Source: Sphingomonas sp. LHG3406-1 (GTDB lineage: Bacteria > Pseudomonadota > Alphaproteobacteria > Sphingomonadales > Sphingomonadaceae). Taken from it: DNA of 64,000 nt. A model generated the notes under the pieces. The model saw only the letters and a list, made by a program, of their open reading frames with translations. It was not told where the DNA came from and did not search any database. A program made the translations under genes and the position numbers. Positions 8,554-28,109 of the stretch are shown piece by piece (position 1 is the first letter of the stretch; the number at the start of each line of letters is the position of its first letter). The DNA lies in contig NZ_CP069128.1 in the NCBI RefSeq assembly GCF_029637485.1, positions 992,001 through 1,056,000 on the forward strand, given 5' to 3'.

Positions 8554-11625
<3,072 letters not shown>

Positions 11626-19068: not shown

Positions 19069-20061
19069 TCAGCCAGCGATGAGCCGCGCCGCATCGACCG
19101 CGTGATAGGTGAGGATGCCGGTCGCGCCAGCCCGCTTGAAGGCCAGCAGCGTCTCCAGGATCAGCGCGTCGCGATCGGCCGCCCCGGCTGCGGCGGAATG
19201 CTCGATCATCGCATATTCGCCGCTCACCTGATAAGCGAAGGTCGGCACGTCGAATCGGTCGTGAATGGCCTTTAAAATGTCGAGATAGGGCAGCCCGGGC
19301 TTTACCATCACCATGTCGGCGCCCTCGGCGATGTCGAGCGCCACTTCACGCAGCGCCTCGGCCGCATTGGCCGGGTCCATCTGATAACCGCGCTTGTCGC
19401 CCTTCAGGCGCCCGCCCGACCCCACCGCATCGCGGAACGGACCATAGAAGGACGAGGCATATTTGGCGGCATAGGCCATGATCGCGGTGTCGCACTTGCC
19501 GGCGGCTTCGAGGCCGCCACGGATGGCCCCGACCCGGCCGTCCATCATGTCCGACGGCGCCACGATGTCAGCGCCCGCTTCAGCCTGCACCAGAGCCTGC
19601 TGGACGAGGATGACGGTGGTCTCGTCGTTGAGGACGCAGCCGCGCTCGTCGATCAGCCCGTCGTGACCGTGCGCGGTATAGGGGTCGAGCGCGACATCGG
19701 TCAGAACGCCGATGTCCGGGCAGGCATCCTTCACGGCCTTCACGGCCCGGCAGATGAGATTGTCGGGATTGAGCGCTTCCTCCGCCCGCTCGCTGCGAAG
19801 GTGGCCGGGCGTGTTCGGGAAAAGGGCGACGCAGGGGATGCCGAGTTCATGGGCCTCGCGGGCGCGGGCGCCGATGCGGTCGACCGTCCAGCGGCTGACG
19901 CCAGGCAGCGAGGTGATCGGCTCTTCGCAACCGACGCCGTCGCAGATGAAGAGCGGCAGGATGAAGTCGCTCGGGCTCAGCCGGTGCTCGGCAAGGAGGG
20001 AGCGAATCCAGGGTGCGGAACGGCCCCGGCGGAGACGCAGGGCGGGAAAAGCGGCGTTCAT
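19069..20061 (-). CDS. hemB: Porphobilinogen synthase (delta-aminolevulinate dehydratase)
   Basis: HemB condenses two 5-aminolevulinate molecules to porphobilinogen in heme/tetrapyrrole synthesis. The 330-residue enzyme has both Schiff-base lysines: Lys200 in MAYAAKYASSFYGPFRDA and Lys254 in MVKPGLPYLD. The metal site reads DVALDPYTAHGHDG, with Asp rather than the Cys triad of zinc enzymes, so it belongs to the magnesium-dependent class. The ATG at 20059-20061 (MNAAFPALRLRRGR) gives the usual start. It diverges from the lipid kinase gene and is followed by the spermidine-synthase-like gene. Confidence 0.97.
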   Translation of the reverse strand: MNAAFPALRLRRGRSAPWIRSLLAEHRLSPSDFILPLFICDGVGCEEPITSLPGVSRWTVDRIGARAREAHELGIPCVALFPNTPGHLRSERAEEALNPDNLICRAVKAVKDACPDIGVLTDVALDPYTAHGHDGLIDERGCVLNDETTVILVQQALVQAEAGADIVAPSDMMDGRVGAIRGGLEAAGKCDTAIMAYAAKYASSFYGPFRDAVGSGGRLKGDKRGYQMDPANAAEALREVALDIAEGADMVMVKPGLPYLDILKAIHDRFDVPTFAYQVSGEYAMIEHSAAAGAADRDALILETLLAFKRAGATGILTYHAVDAARLIAG

Positions 20062-20109
20062 GGCGGCACTATACGGCACCGCCTGCCCGTTCCAAGCATT
20101 GTGACGCCG

Positions 20110-21000
20110 ATGACTGACGATACGCTCCCGAAACAGGCGATCCTGGTCGTCAACGCCATGAGCCGCAGCGGTGCCGACGCGTTCGAGCACGCACGGGAAT
20201 TACTCGAGGAGCGCGGGGTCGAGCTGCTCGCCGCTCATGCCATCGAAAATCCGGACGACATGCTCCCGACCGTCCGGAAAGCACTGGCCGCAAAGGCGCC
20301 GATGATCATCATCGGCGGCGGGGACGGGTCATTGTCCTCGACCATCGACGACTTCCTCGGCAGCGAGACGGTGTTCGCATTGCTTCCGCTCGGCACCGCC
20401 AACAGCTTCGCCAAGACGCTGGGCATCGGCACGGACCTGCAGGCGGCGGTCGAGACAATCGCCACGGGGCGGAAGATGCGGATCGACCTCGGCGCGATCG
20501 ATGGCGACTATTTCGCCAATGCCGCCGCCATGGGCCTCAGCCCGATGATCGCCGAGACGGTGCCGCACCAGCTGAAGCGGACCCTCGGGATGCTTGGCTA
20601 CATCATCTGGGCGGCCCGGGTCGCGTTCAAGTTCCGGCCGTTCCGGCTGGTGGTGGATGACGGGAGGCGCATCCACCGCACCTGGGCGACGGAAGCGCGG
20701 GTGCTGAACGGAACGCACCATGGCGGGATCGAGCTGGCCGAGAGCGCGGACCTGCAGTCGGGCGAGATCGTCGTGCAGGCGGTGACCGGGCGCGGGCTCG
20801 GGCGTCTGGCGTGGAGCTGGTTCGCGACCCTTTTCAAGCTGCGCAGCCGGAGCCAGACCGTGACCGAATACCGCGGCACGAAGCTGCGGATCGAGACTCG
20901 GCCGCCGCAGAAGATTTCCATAGACGGCGAGCTCAGTGCCAGGACGCCGGTGACGGTCACCGTAGCCCGGGCGGCGGTGTGGGTAGCGGCGCCGCGCTAG
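20110..21000 (+). CDS. Diacylglycerol kinase-family lipid kinase
   Basis: The 296-residue protein has a DAGK catalytic domain (about 10-130), with the nucleotide-binding GGGDGSLSS loop and PLGTANSFAKTLGI. The C-terminal beta-sandwich (about 140-290) ends QKISIDGELSARTPVTV, as in YegS/DgkB lipid kinases. It should phosphorylate a lipid such as diacylglycerol or a sphingoid lipid at the inner face of the membrane; the substrate cannot be read from the sequence. The ATG at 20110 is used; a GTG at 20101 is possible. Its stop codon overlaps that of the convergent MATE gene within CTAG. Confidence 0.9.
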   Translation: MTDDTLPKQAILVVNAMSRSGADAFEHARELLEERGVELLAAHAIENPDDMLPTVRKALAAKAPMIIIGGGDGSLSSTIDDFLGSETVFALLPLGTANSFAKTLGIGTDLQAAVETIATGRKMRIDLGAIDGDYFANAAAMGLSPMIAETVPHQLKRTLGMLGYIIWAARVAFKFRPFRLVVDDGRRIHRTWATEARVLNGTHHGGIELAESADLQSGEIVVQAVTGRGLGRLAWSWFATLFKLRSRSQTVTEYRGTKLRIETRPPQKISIDGELSARTPVTVTVARAAVWVAAPR

Positions 21001-22400
21001 GTCGTCGGCGCCATTTTCGCCTTCCGCCAACGGCCCGAGCGATAGTAGAGCCAGGCGAGCACGAGATTGACGATCGTGCCCACGGGGAAGCTCCACCAGA
21101 TGGCGTCGCTGCCAAGCCAGCCCTGCGCGCCGCCGGCAAAGCCGAGGCGGACGGGGATGAGGCCGACCGCGAGGATCAGCAGCGGCGCGACCACGGCGCC
21201 GGCGGCGCGGACGGTGCCGAACAGGACCAGCACCAGGCCGAACATGAGAAAGCTCCAGGTTGCGATCCACTGGATCCGGATGGCGATCGGAAGCGCCGGG
21301 CTGTCCATGCCGAGGAACAGGCCGAGCGCGGGCTTCTCGAAGAGGATGAACAGACCGATCAGCGCGGCGGTGATGACCGTCACCTGGATGATCGCGATCC
21401 TGGTGATGCGGTCGACACGATCCCAGCGCCCTGCCCCGATATTTTGCGCGGCCATGGCGCTGACCGCTGCGCCGAAGGCCATGGCCGGCATCTGGACATA
21501 GGCCCATAGCTGCATGGTCACGCCATAGGCGGCGGCGGTCTCCACCCCTTGCGCGTTGACGAGGCCGATCATCGCCAGGCTGGAGACCGAGATGACGATC
21601 ATCTGCAGTCCCATCGGCAGGCCCTTGCCCATGATGGTCCCGAGTTGCCCGCGGTCGGGGACGAGGAAGCGCAGGTCGCGGCCGCCGAGCGTCAGGGGCA
21701 GGCGGCGCGCATAAGCGAAGAGAATGAGGCCGGTCAGCGCGACCCAGTTGGCGATCGCCGTGGCATAGCCCGCGCCGGCGATGCCGAGCGCCGGAAACGG
21801 ACCGATGCCGGCGATCAGCAGCGGATTAAGCACCACGTCCAAGGCCGCCGCCAGCAGCATGAAATAGAGCGGCGTCACGCTGTCGCCCGACCCGCGCAGG
21901 GCCATGGAGAGCGCGACCAGCACCACCGCGGCGGGCGTGCCGAGGAGGAAGGTGCGAAGATAGGTGGCGGCGAGCGGAAGCGCCTCGCCCGGCGTGCCGA
22001 GCAGCCGCAGCAGGTCGGGCGCGGCAAGCTCGCCGGCGATCAGCACGAGGATTCCGACACCGAAGAAGAAGGTCACCGCCGTCCCCAGCACCCGCCGCGC
22101 GCCCTCGACGTCGCGGCGTCCCCAGGCCTGCCCGATGAGGATCGAGGTCGCCATCGAGAAGCCGAAGGTGAAGGCGATGAGGACGAACCAGACCATATTG
22201 GCATTGGCGGTCGCCGCCAGCGCCTCCTCGCCGAGCAGCCGGCCGACCCAGATGCTGTTGATCGAGGCATTGAGGCTCTGGACGATGGACGAGCCGAGCG
22301 TCGGGATCGCGAAGGCGAGCAGGGTCTTGCCGATCGGCCCCGTCGTCAGGTCGCGCTGGTGGGGCCGCGCGCCGGCGGCGGGCGCATCCTGGTCAGCCAC
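20997..22400 (-). CDS. MATE-family efflux transporter
   Basis: The 467-residue membrane protein has about 12 hydrophobic helices in two related halves, as in the MATE (NorM/DinF) cation- or proton-coupled drug exporters. Typical stretches are LTTGPIGKTLLAFAIPTLGSS at the start, SINSIWVGRLLGEEALAA in helix 2, and KGLPMGLQMIVIS opening the second half. The GTG at 22398-22400 (MADQDAPAAG) precedes the first helix; longer readings add only low-quality sequence. No regulator is adjacent, and the substrate is unknown. Confidence 0.92.
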   Translation of the reverse strand: MADQDAPAAGARPHQRDLTTGPIGKTLLAFAIPTLGSSIVQSLNASINSIWVGRLLGEEALAATANANMVWFVLIAFTFGFSMATSILIGQAWGRRDVEGARRVLGTAVTFFFGVGILVLIAGELAAPDLLRLLGTPGEALPLAATYLRTFLLGTPAAVVLVALSMALRGSGDSVTPLYFMLLAAALDVVLNPLLIAGIGPFPALGIAGAGYATAIANWVALTGLILFAYARRLPLTLGGRDLRFLVPDRGQLGTIMGKGLPMGLQMIVISVSSLAMIGLVNAQGVETAAAYGVTMQLWAYVQMPAMAFGAAVSAMAAQNIGAGRWDRVDRITRIAIIQVTVITAALIGLFILFEKPALGLFLGMDSPALPIAIRIQWIATWSFLMFGLVLVLFGTVRAAGAVVAPLLILAVGLIPVRLGFAGGAQGWLGSDAIWWSFPVGTIVNLVLAWLYYRSGRWRKAKMAPTT

Positions 22401-22588
22401 GCGGGCCCGCGGCAGACGAGGGACGGGAAAAAGGCATATCGTCCACTTCGTCCACTTGTTCAGGAAAGCCGGTGCGCGGGGGCAAGTGGGGGTGCTTGGA
22501 AAGGACGGCAAGACGCACGTCTGCGGCTTAGCCTGATTGGCCGATGTAGGACAGGATTAAGCTGTTCCCCGGCGCGAGCCGAAGCCCA

Positions 22589-22654
22589 GCCCGGCGCCAC
22601 GCCGGGCGAGGAAAGCGCCTTGAGGGCGCTCCTGGGCCCCGGCCTTCGCCGGGG
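22589..22654. repeat. Pair of GC-rich hairpins downstream of valS
   Basis: GCCCGGCG-cca-CGCCGGGC lies at 22589-22607, and CCCCGGC-cttc-GCCGGGG at 22637-22654. The second resembles the hairpin at 332-351. The pair sits just beyond the valS stop and may end the valS transcript. The rest of 22401-22661 holds no gene. Confidence 0.7.
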
Positions 22655-22661
22655 TGCAGTC

Positions 22662-25400
22662 TCAGCCCAGCCGCGCCAGCGCCGCCCGCAGCCGCTCGGC
22701 CTCGGCGGCGCGGGCGTCGTGGTCGGCGCGGGCCTTGGCAACGGCCTCCGGCTTGGCACGCTCGGCGAAGGCCGGGTTGCCGAGCCGTGCGGCAAGGCTG
22801 TCGCGGTCCTTCTCCGCGGCTTCGGCGGCCTTGGCGAGGCGGCTGCGCTCGGCGTCAAGGTCGATGGCATCGCCAAGCGGGAAGGCCACGGTCGCTCCGC
22901 CGACCACGATCTGCGCCGAACCGGCGGGCGGAGCGTCGGCAGCGACCGGGGCGCCGATCTTCGCCATGCGTCCGAGGATGGCGCCTTCCTGTTCGATCAG
23001 GCCGATCAGGGCGCTGCCGCCCTCCCCTGCCAGCACGTGCGGGACGAGCGCCGCCGTCCACGGCACGTTGAGCTCGGAGCGAAGGGCGCGGACGCCCTCG
23101 ACGAAGGCGATCACGGATTCGACCTTCGCCTTCGCATCCGCGTCGCTTGCAGCATTCGGCTCAGGCCACGTGGCCACGATGAGGTCGTACGGCCGCTCGC
23201 CCATGCCGTGCCACAGCTCCTCGGTGACGAACGGCATGAACGGGTGGAGCATGACCAGGATCTGGTCGAACGCCCAGCCGGCGACGGCGCGGGTCTCCTC
23301 GTCGAAGCCGCCCTTCACCAGCTCGACATACCAGTCGCAGAAGGTGCCCCAGGTGAAGTGGTAGATGGCGTCGGCCATGCCGTCGAAGCGCAGCTCGTCG
23401 AAGGCGCGGTTGAGCTTGCCCAGCGTCTCCACCACCTCGCCGATGATCCAGCGGTTGACCGGCTTGGTGGCTTCGGGCGCCGCGATCGAAGTGGACGGCC
23501 CGACCCCGTTCATCTGCAGGAAGCGGGCGGCGTTCCACAGCTTGGTGGCGAAATTGCGATAACCCTCGACCCGCTTCTCATCCAATTTGATGTCTCGGCC
23601 CTGGCTCTCCATCGCCGCCATGGTGAAGCGGAGGGCATCGGCGCCATATTTGTCGATAAGGACGAGGGGGTCGACGGTGTTGCCCTTCGACTTGCTCATC
23701 TTCTGGCCCTGCGCGTCGCGCACGAGACCGTGGAGGTAGAGCGTGCGCCACGGCACCTCATCCATGAACTCGAGCCCCTGCATGGCCATGCGGGCATCCC
23801 AGAAGAAGAGGATGTCGAAGCCGGAGATGAGGACGTCGTTGGGGTAGTGGCGGGCGAGATCTCCCCTCCCGCTTGCGGGAGGGGCCGCGGGAGGGCTTGT
23901 CGGCGAGGATGGCGACACGCCCTCCCCTTCCGGCGCTGACGCGCCTCCTTCCCCTCCCGGAAGCGGGAGGGGCGAGCCTTCGGGCCACCCCAGGGTCGCG
24001 AAGGGCCACAGTGCCGAGCTGAACCAGGTGTCCAGCACGTCCTGGTCCTGCATCAGCGGGCGCTCGTCGCCGGCCATGGCCTGCGCTTCCTCGGCGCTCA
24101 TGGCGACGAAGATGTTGCCGAACTCGTCGTACCACGCCGGGATCCGGTGGCCCCACCATAGCTGGCGCGACACGCACCACGGCTGGATGCCTTCGAGCCA
24201 GTTGAACCAGGTCTTGGACCAGGTCTCGGGCACGACCTTGATCTCGCCGGCCCTGGTCGCAGCGACGACGCGCTCGGCGAGCGGCTTTACGTCGACATAC
24301 CATTGGTCGGTCAGCCAAGGTTCGATCACCACGCCGGAGCGGTCGCCGAGCGGGGTAGCGATGGTGCGGTCCTCGACCTTGACGAGCGCTCCGTCGGCCT
24401 CGAGCAGTTCGACCACCCGCCGGCGGGCGTCGAAGCGCTCGCGGCCGAGCAGTTCTTCGGGCACCAAGCCGTCCGCGGTCTGGCAGACGTGGGCGGACGC
24501 ATCGAGCATGTTGAACATGTCGGCGGGCTTGATCCCGGCGCGGCGGCCGACCTCGAAGTCGTTGAAGTCGTGGCCGGGCGTGATCTTCACCGCGCCGGAG
24601 CCCAATTCGGGATCGGCATGTTCGTCGGCAACGATCGGGATGAGGCGGCCGGTGATCGGAAGCCTGATCTGCTTGCCGATGAGCGCGGTGTAACGCTCGT
24701 CCGACGGGTGGACCGCCACCGCCATGTCGGCAAGCATGGTCTCGGGCCGCGTGGTCGCCACCTCGATATGGCCGCTGCCGTCCGCCAGCGGATAGCTGAG
24801 GGTCCAGAACTTGCCCGGCTGGTCGCGCGTCTCGACCTCGAGATCGGAGATGGCGGTCTGGAACTTGGGGTCCCAGTTCACCAGGCGCTTGTCGCGGTAG
24901 ATACGGCCGCGCTTGTGAAGCTCGACAAAGGTGTGGAGGACGGCCTTCGAGAAGCCCTCGTCCATGGTGAAGCGCTCGTTTGACCAGTCGCAGGAGGCGC
25001 CGAGGCGGCGCAGCTGGCGGGTGATCTGGCCGCCGCTCTCGGCCTTCCACTCCCACACCTTGGCGACGAACTCGTCGCGGGTGAAGTCGGTGCGCTTCTG
25101 CTGCTGGGCGTTCAGCTGGCGCTCGACCACCATCTGGGTGGCGATACCGGCATGGTCGGTGCCGACCACCCACAAAGCGTCCTTGCCCTGCATCCGCGCG
25201 CGGCGGACGAGGATGTCCTGCAGCGTATCGTCGAGCGCGTGGCCGATGTGGAGGCTGCCAGTGACATTGGGCGGCGGCATGACGATGGTGAACGGCTCGG
25301 CGTCAGGGCGCGCCGGGCGGAATTGGCCCGTCTTCTCCCAATGGTCGTACCAGCGGGCTTCGATGGCGGCGGGTTCGAAGGTCTTCGGCAGATCGGTCAT
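22662..25400 (-). CDS. valS: Valyl-tRNA synthetase with an in-frame repeat-derived insert
   Basis: This class I aminoacyl-tRNA synthetase charges tRNA-Val. The 912-residue protein shows [15 protein letters not shown] (HIGH at 51-54), the editing domain (about 190-350), [37 protein letters not shown] (about 563) and a C-terminal coiled coil (about 850-912). Residues 475-513, between LGWPE and [11 protein letters not shown], form a Pro/Gly/Ser-rich insert of about 36 extra residues absent from typical ValRS. It is encoded by two palindromic repeats (23863-23972). The conserved sequence resumes in frame, so the enzyme should remain functional. Confidence 0.97.
23863..23972. repeat. Two palindromic repeats inserted inside valS
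   Basis: The first palindrome, 23863-23884, has arms CCCCTCCCGC/GCGGGAGGGG around TT and is identical to the one in uvrA at 11512-11533. The second, 23951-23972, has arms CCCCTCCCG/CGGGAGGGG around GAAG. Between them are ccgcgggagggcttgtcggcgagg and related filler. Together they encode the extra residues (about 475-513) of ValS. The reading frame is kept on both sides. Confidence 0.88.
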
Positions 25401-25442
25401 GGTGCGCTGCGGTATAGAGCGCGGCGGCTTCGTTCAACCGTC

Positions 25443-25522
25443 ATGCCGGGCCGAACCCGGCATCCATCTGCCTTGGACCGGCAGGCGCGAAAGACAGGCG
25501 GACCCCGGATCAAGTCCGGGGT
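25443..25522. repeat. Two hairpin repeats upstream of valS
   Basis: ATGCCGGG-ccgaa-CCCGGCAT lies at 25443-25463 and ACCCCGGA-tcaag-TCCGGGGT at 25502-25522, separated by tccatctgccttggaccgg-type filler. This is the common intergenic mosaic repeat of many alphaproteobacteria, here between valS and the S9 peptidase stop. Confidence 0.75.
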
Positions 25523-25527
25523 GACGC

Positions 25528-27603
25528 TTACTTCTGCGTGGTCGTTCCCCCGCCCATGATCGGCTGCCCGCCGGTCCACCGGTCGAGCCAGCGGTGGACC
25601 TCGCGGTACCATTGGATGGAGTTGACCGGCTTCAGCACCCAATGGTTCTCGTCCGGGAAGCGGAGCAGGCGGCTGGGAACCTCCCGGCGCTGGAGCGCAG
25701 TGAAGGCGCCGAGCCCTTGCGTATAGGGCACGCGATAATCGCGGTCGCCGATGATGATGAGGTTCGGCGTCTTCCAGTTGGCGACGTAGTTCAGCGGATT
25801 ATGCTTCTCGTAGTTGGCCGGCACCTCGAACGGCGAGCCGCCATTCTCCCACTCCGTGAACCACAATTCCTCGGTCATGTAGCCCATCGAACGGGTGTCG
25901 AAGATGCCATTGTGAGTGACCAGGCACTTGAAGGCGTCGGGCCAGCGGCCGGCGATCCAGTTGGTCATGTAGCCGCCGTAGCTGCCGCCGAGCGCGCAGG
26001 CGCGGGTGCCGTCGAGCTGCGCATCCTTCGACAAGGCGAAGGCCCAGCCCTTCTGCAGGTCCTCGAGCGGCTTGCCGCCCCAGTCGTTGCGAATGGCGTC
26101 GGTGAAGGCCTGGCCGTAGCCGGTGGAGCCGTGGAAATCGACGCTGACCACGGCATATTTGCCGGCCGAGAAGGCGCGCGGATTCCAGCGGTAGGACCAG
26201 CTGTTGTTGAAGCTGCCCTGCGGTCCGCCATGGACGATGAAGGCGACGGGAAGCTTGGCCGCCGGCGCATTGGCGGGCTTGAAGGTATAGCCCCAGACGG
26301 TGTCGTTGCTGGCGCCGGCGAAGCTCCACTTCTCGAAGGTGACCGGATCGAGCTCGGCAAGCAGCGCGCGGTTGACGGCGGTGAGCTGGGCAAGCCGGCC
26401 GCGCCGGTCGAGGCGGTAGAGGTCGTCGGGTACCTGGACCGAGTTGATCGCGAGCAGCACGTCGCCGTTCGGCAGGGCGCGCGCATTGTGGGCAGTGCCT
26501 TCGCGGGTGAGGCGCGTGACCCTGCCGCTGGCGACGTCAACCCGGAACAGCGGGGTCTCGAGCGTGTCCTGCGCCTCGACGACGAGGCTCCTGCCGTCCC
26601 TCGCCCAGGTCAGTGAGCCGACCGAGCGATCCCAGCCTTCGGTGAGGGCGCGGGTGCGGCCGCTGGCGAGATCGCGCAGCATGATCACCAATCGGTCGGC
26701 TTCGTAGCCGGGGCGCTTCATCGCGACATAGGCGAGCGTCCGGCCGTCGGGCGAGACGGTCGGCAGATTGTCGGTCGCGGCATTGGCGTCGGTGAGGTTT
26801 ACCGGCGGCGCAGAGCCGTCGATCGGCGCGGCGAAGATGTCGAGGTTGGTCGACTTGGGCTCGATCCGGCCGGCCTCGCGAAGGGCGAAATAGACGGTCC
26901 GGCCATCGCGCGAGATGGCGATCTCCTCGCCGCCGCCATAGGGCTTGGACGGGGTGTCGCCGACCAGCTCGCCGGTGACGCGCACGCCCATGCCCTGCAG
27001 CTTTCCGCCGCTCAACGGGAAGGAGTAGATGCGGCTGCGGGTGCCGGGCTCGACCCACGTGTCCCAGTGGCGGACGAACAGCTCGTTATAGACCTTGCCG
27101 GACCCGGGCTCGGGCGCGGCGAAGGTGGTGGCGGCGCAGGCAAGGTCCGGGCAGTCGCGCTGGTCGGCCCAGACGATGACGTTGCGGCCGTCCGGCGCAA
27201 TCCTGAAACCGGAGACATCGGCGCCGAAGTCGCTGATCGCCACCGCGGCCTGGCCCATCACCATGCGGTGCAGCTGAGCACGCTCGCCGACGGCCTTGAG
27301 GAAGTAGATCGCACCATCGGGCCCGAACACGGCATCGCTCGCGCCCTCGGCTCCGGCGACCGGCTGCGGCGCGGCGCCGGCCCTGGTGAGGTCGAGGCTG
27401 TGCAGCACGTTGTTGCGACGGTTCTTGTCGAGATCGGTGGTCGACAGGCTGAAGATGGCGGTGCGGCCGTCCGGCGACACTTCCGGCGCGCCGAGGCGAC
27501 GCATGTTCTGAAGGTCTGTGGCGGTCATCGGCCGGGCTTCGGCGGCGGCGACGGGGGCGAGGACGGCGGCGGCAGCCGCGAGGAGCAGGGTGCGCTTGAT
27601 CAT
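25528..27603 (-). CDS. S9-family prolyl oligopeptidase-type peptidase, secreted
   Basis: The 691-residue protein has a signal peptide (MIKRTLLLAAAAAVLAPVAAAEA), a beta-propeller of WD/PD40-like blades (about 40-430: PEVSPDGRTAIFS, LPTVSPDGRTLAYVA) and an alpha/beta-hydrolase domain (about 440-691). The catalytic triad is Ser541 in GGSYGGY, Asp622 in GDRDYRVP and His654 in DENHWVLKP. Such periplasmic peptidases cut short peptides behind Pro or after N-acyl residues. The ATG at 27601-27603 directly precedes the signal peptide. It sits between valS and popZ, where other sphingomonads often have valS next to popZ. Confidence 0.93.
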   Translation of the reverse strand: MIKRTLLLAAAAAVLAPVAAAEARPMTATDLQNMRRLGAPEVSPDGRTAIFSLSTTDLDKNRRNNVLHSLDLTRAGAAPQPVAGAEGASDAVFGPDGAIYFLKAVGERAQLHRMVMGQAAVAISDFGADVSGFRIAPDGRNVIVWADQRDCPDLACAATTFAAPEPGSGKVYNELFVRHWDTWVEPGTRSRIYSFPLSGGKLQGMGVRVTGELVGDTPSKPYGGGEEIAISRDGRTVYFALREAGRIEPKSTNLDIFAAPIDGSAPPVNLTDANAATDNLPTVSPDGRTLAYVAMKRPGYEADRLVIMLRDLASGRTRALTEGWDRSVGSLTWARDGRSLVVEAQDTLETPLFRVDVASGRVTRLTREGTAHNARALPNGDVLLAINSVQVPDDLYRLDRRGRLAQLTAVNRALLAELDPVTFEKWSFAGASNDTVWGYTFKPANAPAAKLPVAFIVHGGPQGSFNNSWSYRWNPRAFSAGKYAVVSVDFHGSTGYGQAFTDAIRNDWGGKPLEDLQKGWAFALSKDAQLDGTRACALGGSYGGYMTNWIAGRWPDAFKCLVTHNGIFDTRSMGYMTEELWFTEWENGGSPFEVPANYEKHNPLNYVANWKTPNLIIIGDRDYRVPYTQGLGAFTALQRREVPSRLLRFPDENHWVLKPVNSIQWYREVHRWLDRWTGGQPIMGGGTTTQK

Positions 27604-27644
27604 GGCGGCGAGGCGTAGCAGCGCCGGGATGAACCGCAAGTGGG

Positions 27645-28109
27645 CTAGAGCTGCTGCCCCGTGATGCGGCCGATCTCGCGCTTCACATGCTCGTCGACGA
27701 TCGCCGGCAGATGCTGGTCGAGCCAGTCCTTGAGCATCGGCCGGAGCATGTCGCGCACCATCTGCTCGAGCGGATTGACCGCGGGCGGCGGCGGCGCGGC
27801 GGCGGCAGCCTCCTGCAGCGCGGCGAGCCGGGCGCGGCTGGCCGCGGCGGCATCCTCGCTGACCAGCGGCGGGCCGAGGTCGACCGAGGGCGCCGGCGGC
27901 CTGGGCGCTTCCTCGGGGACCATCTCGTCGAGTTCGAGCACCTCGTGCGGCGCGGCGACTGGCGGCGCGTCGGGTGACGGCTCTTCGATCGGCTCGACCA
28001 CGGGCGCGGGCACCGTCACCTGGCCGGTGGAGCGCAGCTCCTTCTCCTCCGCGATCACTTTCTTGATCGAGGCGAGTATGTCTTCCATCGAGGGTTCGCG
28101 GCCGGGCAT
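27645..28109 (-). CDS. popZ: Polar organising protein PopZ-like (DUF2497)
   Basis: The 154-residue protein has the PopZ layout: a short N-terminal helix (EPSMEDILASIKKVIAEEK), a Pro/Ala/Glu-rich disordered middle (about 35-105), and a C-terminal oligomerisation module (NPLEQMVRDMLRPMLKDWLDQHLPAIVDEHVKREI). In Caulobacter, PopZ condenses at cell poles and anchors ParB and polarity factors. The ATG at 28107-28109 keeps the usual M-x-EPSMEDILASI start; an ATG seven codons later is possible. It is in line with tolC and the pcm-like gene, a common sphingomonad order. Confidence 0.88.
   Translation of the reverse strand: MPGREPSMEDILASIKKVIAEEKELRSTGQVTVPAPVVEPIEEPSPDAPPVAAPHEVLELDEMVPEEAPRPPAPSVDLGPPLVSEDAAAASRARLAALQEAAAAAPPPPAVNPLEQMVRDMLRPMLKDWLDQHLPAIVDEHVKREIGRITGQQL

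Follow-up and report, generated by a model that had tools for sequence, protein, structure and literature searches.

Hosts of Rickettsia palindromic elements (RPEs) are AT-rich intracellular bacteria, and in the REPIN layout two inverted REPs form one long hairpin, present in many copies per genome. RPEs are described as inserting in frame into unrelated genes (PMC10969869). Di Nocera et al. (2013, PMC3733652) describe GTAG- and CGTC-tagged REPs, palindromes of 20-40 bp that often form dimers and also lie inside genes. According to the text of that article, more than half of the intragenic inserts are dimers or groups, encoding 20-30 amino acids, and their hosts are often replication or repair genes (uvrA, dnaE2, DNA ligase), with further REPs in tRNA synthetase genes, including those of S. 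alaskensis and E. litoralis. The same text reports, once, different REPs at about the same recB site in two Xanthomonas, mentions untagged REP families and several of their hosts, no sphingomonad being among those it names, and likewise states the agent that moves CGTC REPs to be unknown. This article was the only close precedent found among the main texts covered by our literature search, and its intragenic REPs are closer to the case below than RPEs. It already documents REPs within synthetase, uvrA and dnaE2 genes (PMC3733652), so the element described below is of a known kind, found at a striking location.

The element lies in valS, within a window of 64,000 nucleotides (G000:C1:992001-1056000, the whole stretch of DNA analysed) of a genome that forms a single contig of 2,845,504 bp. 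It resembles the GTAG/CGTC REPs in being a dispersed short palindrome, often arranged as inverted dimers (45 palindromes at 29 sites here); S. alaskensis and E. litoralis are themselves sphingomonads. Unlike those REPs, it has no GTAG or CGTC end but carries YT and then C before CCCTCCC on both sides (58 dimers), and its dimer possesses a conserved nested inner stem. Because it is without these tags, it does not fall into those superfamilies, though it behaves alike. With RPEs it shares in-frame insertion in several unrelated genes (10 of its 29 sites). This likeness, drawn in the earlier note, is one of behaviour rather than of demonstrated membership; R. conorii RPE sequences end in CGTC according to PMC3733652, whereas the valS element does not. 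As in REPINs, its dimer is inverted around a spacer and can fold as one hairpin, but PF01797 (Y1_Tnp), the RAYT domain of the REPIN/RAYT system (Bertels and Rainey 2011, PMC3116915), was found neither here nor in 15 of 20 copy-rich relatives. Finally, it is MITE-like in being short, non-coding and dispersed, with terminal inverted repeats, but differs in that no target-site duplication was found at its copies (58 dimers). Its interest lies in clear empty sites and in loops and genes that recur as targets of different repeats: this is a checkable case of apparently mobile non-coding DNA incorporated into an essential enzyme, the corresponding sites of close relatives being empty.

Layout, folding and distribution of the element

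No match to the 22-mer palindrome with up to three mismatches was found in 100 shuffles of the window. Throughout the 2.85-Mb genome, CCCCTCCCNNNNNNGGGAGGGG with at most one mismatch occurs 45 times, against 0 for the reversed-pattern control. Manual grouping places these palindromes at 29 sites, 16 of which have both partners listed, 51-99 bp apart. Copies share one layout, with variation: in order, CT/CCCCTCCCGC-YY-GCGGGAGGGG, the GGGGGAGGG-like and CCCTCCCC-like arms with a variable loop between them, a small hairpin in some copies, and CCCCTCCCGC-RR-GCGGGAGGGG/AG. At the element ends, CT/CCCC...GGGG/AG, conservation drops abruptly on both sides over 58 dimers, so the copies sit in unrelated flanks. 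The earlier note had given an extent of 23863-23972; its palindromes were found where it placed them, and this conservation shifts the edges to about 23861-23974 (Table 1).

Table 1. Features of the window discussed in the text (positions from the first nucleotide of the window).
Feature	Position	Strand	Remarks
valS, valyl-tRNA synthetase, 912 aa	22662..25400	-	single full-length copy in genome
Codons 475-513, replacing three codons of relatives	23862..23978	-	alignment with relatives
Palindromic element in valS, untagged REP-like inverted dimer	23861..23974		about 114 nt; right edge degenerate; edges from 58 copies
Palindrome 1	23863..23884		identical to uvrA copy; coding strand reads PPASGRG
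Inner stem, left arm GGGAGGG	23889..23895	+	fold; family pairing
Inner stem, right arm CCCTCCC	23920..23926	+	fold; family pairing
Small extra hairpin, longer subtype	23932..23945	+	fold; similar hairpins in other long copies
Palindrome 2	23951..23972		one mismatch to palindrome 1 on opposite strand; within PLPLPGGEG
uvrA, 1023 aa, palindrome-coded C-terminal tail	8554..11625	+	UvrA model NF001503 matches residues 3-972
Second palindrome site of the window, uvrA residues about 987-994	11512..11533		identical 22-mer

The valS copy folds end to end (RNA -88 kcal/mol, z -5.8; DNA z -5.7). Frame, centre-covariation and inner-stem statistics were computed on the 54 copies with two palindromes, 20 of which were unscorable for the inner stem, and the edge-conservation and target-site tests on 58 dimers. 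Among the 34 scorable copies, the middle pair of the inner stem was A.T in 19, T.A in 15 and mismatched in 0. Fully scored copies had A.T in the present genome (G000), G020, G060 and G042, and T.A in G057, G051, G044 and G045; one half-scored G020 copy had a T.A-type right arm. This exchange supports pairing of the inner stem, but the same pattern would arise from a single double change spread by copying, so it does not count as many independent events. The centres of the two palindromes displayed no covariation beyond shuffles. Of the six reading frames, 4.9 were stop-free in in-gene dimers and 4.3 in other dimers, compared with 4.7 and 4.2 in composition-matched shuffles. Selection for the element's coding ability was rejected on this basis, and since stop-free frames match composition, this ability looks like a by-product. 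A search of window positions 20000-28000 against Rfam returned only one sub-threshold microRNA match.

Of 296 genomes sampled across the order, 106 contained the exact sequence CCCCTCCCGNNNNCGGGAGGGG, in up to 130 copies; all positive genomes belonged to the window's own family, against 0 of 83 rows of other families. That the element has been copied is plain from this distribution. RAYT was considered as a mobiliser and rejected: PF01797 was not detected in the genome itself, and was found in only 3 of 71 genomes of the genus and in 5 of the 20 copy-rich genomes, with no palindrome near the three genus genes (three 3.3-kb loci). Neither a target-site duplication (58 dimers; best z 2.0, mean shuffle maximum 2.1) nor a mobilising enzyme, in a search limited to PF01797, was found, so it is from distribution that we infer mobility, whose agent may be a transposase or errors of replication or repair.

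The insert in valyl-tRNA synthetase

At E<=1e-40, ValS is the only match of ValRS level in the genome; its open reading frame is devoid of internal stops, and it keeps the HIGH and KMSKS motifs. The NCBIfam models PRK05729 and TIGR00422 match it in two stretches, the first of which stops at residue 474. The next residues, 475-513, amount to 39 amino acids, against 3 in relatives, before conserved sequence resumes in frame. In a first alignment, GWP was followed by four residues before the ...HYPND motif in 24 of 24 genus relatives and by 40 in the protein studied here, a net gain of 36 codons. The earlier note had claimed that these residues replace a shorter segment and are encoded by the two palindromes and their spacer, one palindrome being identical to that of the uvrA tail in another reading frame; all of this is borne out, the shared 22-mer being read as PLPLAGGA in uvrA and PPASGRG in valS. 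The site remained empty in 40 of 42 genus sequences after enlargement of the set, and in T. thermophilus ValRS (1gax) the insertion point maps between residues 472 and 475. We observed neither relatives with equal residues from unrelated DNA nor a genome free of further palindromes: other coding genes of this genome hold in-frame copies. The closest named ValS loci belong to Sphingomonas and Sphingomicrobium. Among the relatives whose ValS is without the insert, G020, G017 and G011 are 89-90% identical to the present protein over residues 1-474. Junctions at valS, and likewise at ileS and dnaE2, differ from relatives by a few host codons, and a clean insertion was not seen there.

The AlphaFold model of ValS has a mean pLDDT of 83, with values below 50 at residues 460-464 and 468-520, the latter being the sole long stretch of this kind; these include some conserved residues flanking the insert, which is thus predicted to be floppy or disordered. 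With respect to cost, dN/dS was 0.12-0.13 from this ValS to G017 and G011, against 0.085 between G017 and G011. Crude relative-rate counts, with branch order uncontrolled, gave 22 changes on the own branch versus 13 and 16 for ValS, 50 versus 10 and 9 for IleS (whose N terminus is uncertain), 40 versus 23 and 16 for DnaE2, and 13 versus 13 and 15 for MutL. With a dN/dS of 0.12 against 0.085 and a longer own branch, some cost of the ValS insert would be compatible with the data.

ValRS was found in 68 of 71 genus genomes; 24 sequences were read, then 19 more picked for odd lengths or breaks, and the rest were taken as match tables, a non-random set whose counts are not frequencies. At the first loop, the 40 empty sequences stand beside G057, with 28 residues that include another palindrome (CCTCCCC-GGAAC-GGGGAGG, not found elsewhere in the 78 kb of G057 examined), and G058 (L292), with 46 residues and no palindrome. 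At a second loop, near residue 699, palindromic inserts were present in 4 of 42 sequences showing it (L159, L287, L288 and L293): G016 carries one of the RQAQDE type, G070 and G078 carry the family found in valS here, which a second check confirmed for G070, and G085, possibly a mixed bin, carries a C4TC4 palindrome. G078 does not show the first loop, nor G003 the second. The G085 bin contains two different ValS pieces (L293, L294), perhaps owing to contamination. Loop lengths were parsed for 67 of the 80 named loci, and several of these gave no loop value; one named metagenome-assembled genome (L082) has a single C4TC4-type palindrome in the loop near residue 699.

Copies in other genes and recurrence at the same loops

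By scoring open reading frames with a window-trained codon model, followed by NCBIfam and Pfam searches, we found that 10 of the 29 sites fall in frame within named genes, namely valS, ileS, mutL, uvrA (tail), dnaE2, hrpB, pccA (propionyl-CoA carboxylase alpha), E2 (dihydrolipoyl acyltransferase), a CMAS-family gene and gcvPB. Between them, the in-gene palindromes use all three reading frames. Near residue 124, dnaE2 contains another copy that has diverged further, and in MutL and PccA the element lies within a variable stretch, with no clean gain in length. At an assumed 90% coding, about 26 of the 29 sites would be in-gene by chance; with 10 observed, most landings in genes have been removed or avoided. 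Ten same-strand gene pairs among the 19 sites not counted as in-gene were checked by Pfam and none looked like a split gene, nine having different families on the two sides and the tenth one partner without a match. Two candidates, hemW and rplO, were not counted, as the palindrome precedes the start of the model match; both are probably intergenic. Several intergenic copies lie between translation or proteostasis genes according to Pfam (L018, L025, L036, L041, L032), with flanks EF-Ts/S2, IF-2/RbfA, Pth/L25, EF-P and a proteasome-like/AAA pair that would correspond to hslV/hslU.

The loops hit here are also hit in other species, in part by other palindromes; this recurrence in ValRS, IleRS and DnaE2 is the less expected part of the results. 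Where this genome has a palindrome-coded stretch in ileS, G020, G017 and G011 have GGT, G057 has the same palindrome family, and the loop is occupied by other inverted repeats in G009 (PEPV..RQAQ type) and in G007 (L203, L206). After WDCSLE in dnaE2, this genome carries the valS-element family and G017 and G011 have 10-11 residues, whereas other inserts occur in G020 (an inverted repeat of the GTCGAAGG type), in G009 (a palindrome dimer of the CGTCATTCCCGCG type) and in G007 (without a clear palindrome) (loci L179, L183, L184). Near residue 124 of dnaE2, the element also occurs in G045, with similar text in G020. It further occurs here and in G057 in the mutL linker, here and in G057, G044 and G020 in the E2 linker, in G057, G007 and G023 in carA, and in G057 in ligA and uup. 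Altogether 75 sites were examined in 15 other genomes, for some of which only part of the sites was covered, and 13 were in-gene, 8 of 20 in G057 and 5 of 55 in the rest. The weakest case counted is a kynureninase-like frame of G057, whose Pfam score is 28.7 bits where the cut-off is 27 and which NCBIfam does not match; five further frames of relatives, flagged by the codon score but lacking a Pfam match, were not counted. In-frame copies of the palindrome family found in valS are known in eight other genomes (G057, G044, G045, G020, G007, G023, G070, G078). The G057 mutL copy has a T.A stem and its ileS copy a T arm (the other arm being unscorable), whereas both genes are A.T here; this difference in stem type argues for independent entry into mutL and ileS in the two species, although gene conversion could mimic it.

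Explanations of the insert

We consider it very probable that an untagged REP-like dimer entered a loop of ValRS, which is essential and encoded once in the genome, and that its translation yields a disordered stretch at little cost. A GC-rich, non-coding, mobile element of roughly 75-125 bp, in which two 22-bp palindromes in inverted orientation enclose an inner stem, would have inserted into valS after the lineage had split from its nearest sampled relatives, landing in frame and stop-free in a loop of the catalytic half of ValRS. The ribosome would read through, and ValRS would carry a disordered stretch of 39 residues rich in Pro, Gly and Ser, with little cost. Copies that broke essential genes would have been lost, leaving intergenic copies and those in frame in loops or linkers. 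The proposal of the earlier note that an essential enzyme tolerates a repeat insertion is supported in this way by the empty sites, the other in-gene copies, the structure mapping and the predicted disorder. For the species itself, the evidence consists of the genome sequence of one assembly.

Of the other explanations, the one with most in its favour, though improbable, is that the insert is kept for a function: in ValRS and the other enzymes it would serve as a new linker, adjusting stability, the binding of partners or, through an mRNA hairpin, the speed of translation. The hairpin would indeed be very stable, repair genes make up 4 of 14 distinct targets, and a small set of targets recurs between species, G057 sharing 4 of its 8 with the 10 here (about 1e-6 by length alone). 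However, different frames and different palindromes yield unrelated peptides at the same loops, 40 of 42 genus ValRS have no insert at the site, and the peptide is predicted to be disordered. A strong hairpin could also be a signal for excision of the element from the transcript or for ribosome hopping, giving a protein of normal length. We regard this as very unlikely, since ten in-gene copies keep the frame without stops (an argument partly built in, as copies were recognised via spanning frames), and since the ten same-strand pairs checked, from the 19 sites not counted as in-gene, showed no frame-broken gene.

Palindromic GC-rich DNA is hard to sequence and a single assembly is at hand, which would leave room for an assembly error or, alternatively, a dying gene; both are highly unlikely, given that family copies lie in frame in nine further genes of this genome and in 8 further genomes, that HIGH and KMSKS are conserved, and that dN/dS is 0.12. 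Hardly any credence goes to the view that ordinary coding DNA lengthened the loop through local slippage or drift and is repeat-like only in appearance: the residues of the loop are of low complexity (Pro/Gly/Ser) and G058 has 46 palindrome-free residues in the same loop, but the 22-bp identity to uvrA, the many sites, the inverted pairs and a control of 0 stand against it. For annotators and protein modellers, insertion of a palindromic dimer as the preferred reading would mean that, in sphingomonad proteins, Pro/Gly segments of this kind can derive from repeats.

Because different palindromes repeatedly enter the same loops, one can ask directly whether insertion bias or protein tolerance is at work. 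It is possible, though we hold it only tentatively, that a few core-enzyme loops are general landing pads, entered independently by at least three palindrome types across one genus, without RAYT and with a preference for repair and tRNA-charging genes. Candidate loops are those after LGWPE and near residue 699 in ValRS, after MDxPI in IleRS, and after WDCSLE and near residue 124 in DnaE2, together with the MutL and E2 linkers and CarA. If true, this would speak for hairpin-forming DNA being captured, for example in replication or repair, rather than for the work of one transposase. Under a length-only null, which ignores shared inheritance and differences in tolerance between genes, the overlap of 4 of the 8 G057 genes with the 10 of this genome gives a P of about 1e-6. 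The four repair genes among the 14 distinct targets (uvrA, dnaE2, mutL, ligA) give P about 0.004 if repair genes occupy 5% of coding length and 0.02 if they occupy 8%, both shares being assumed.
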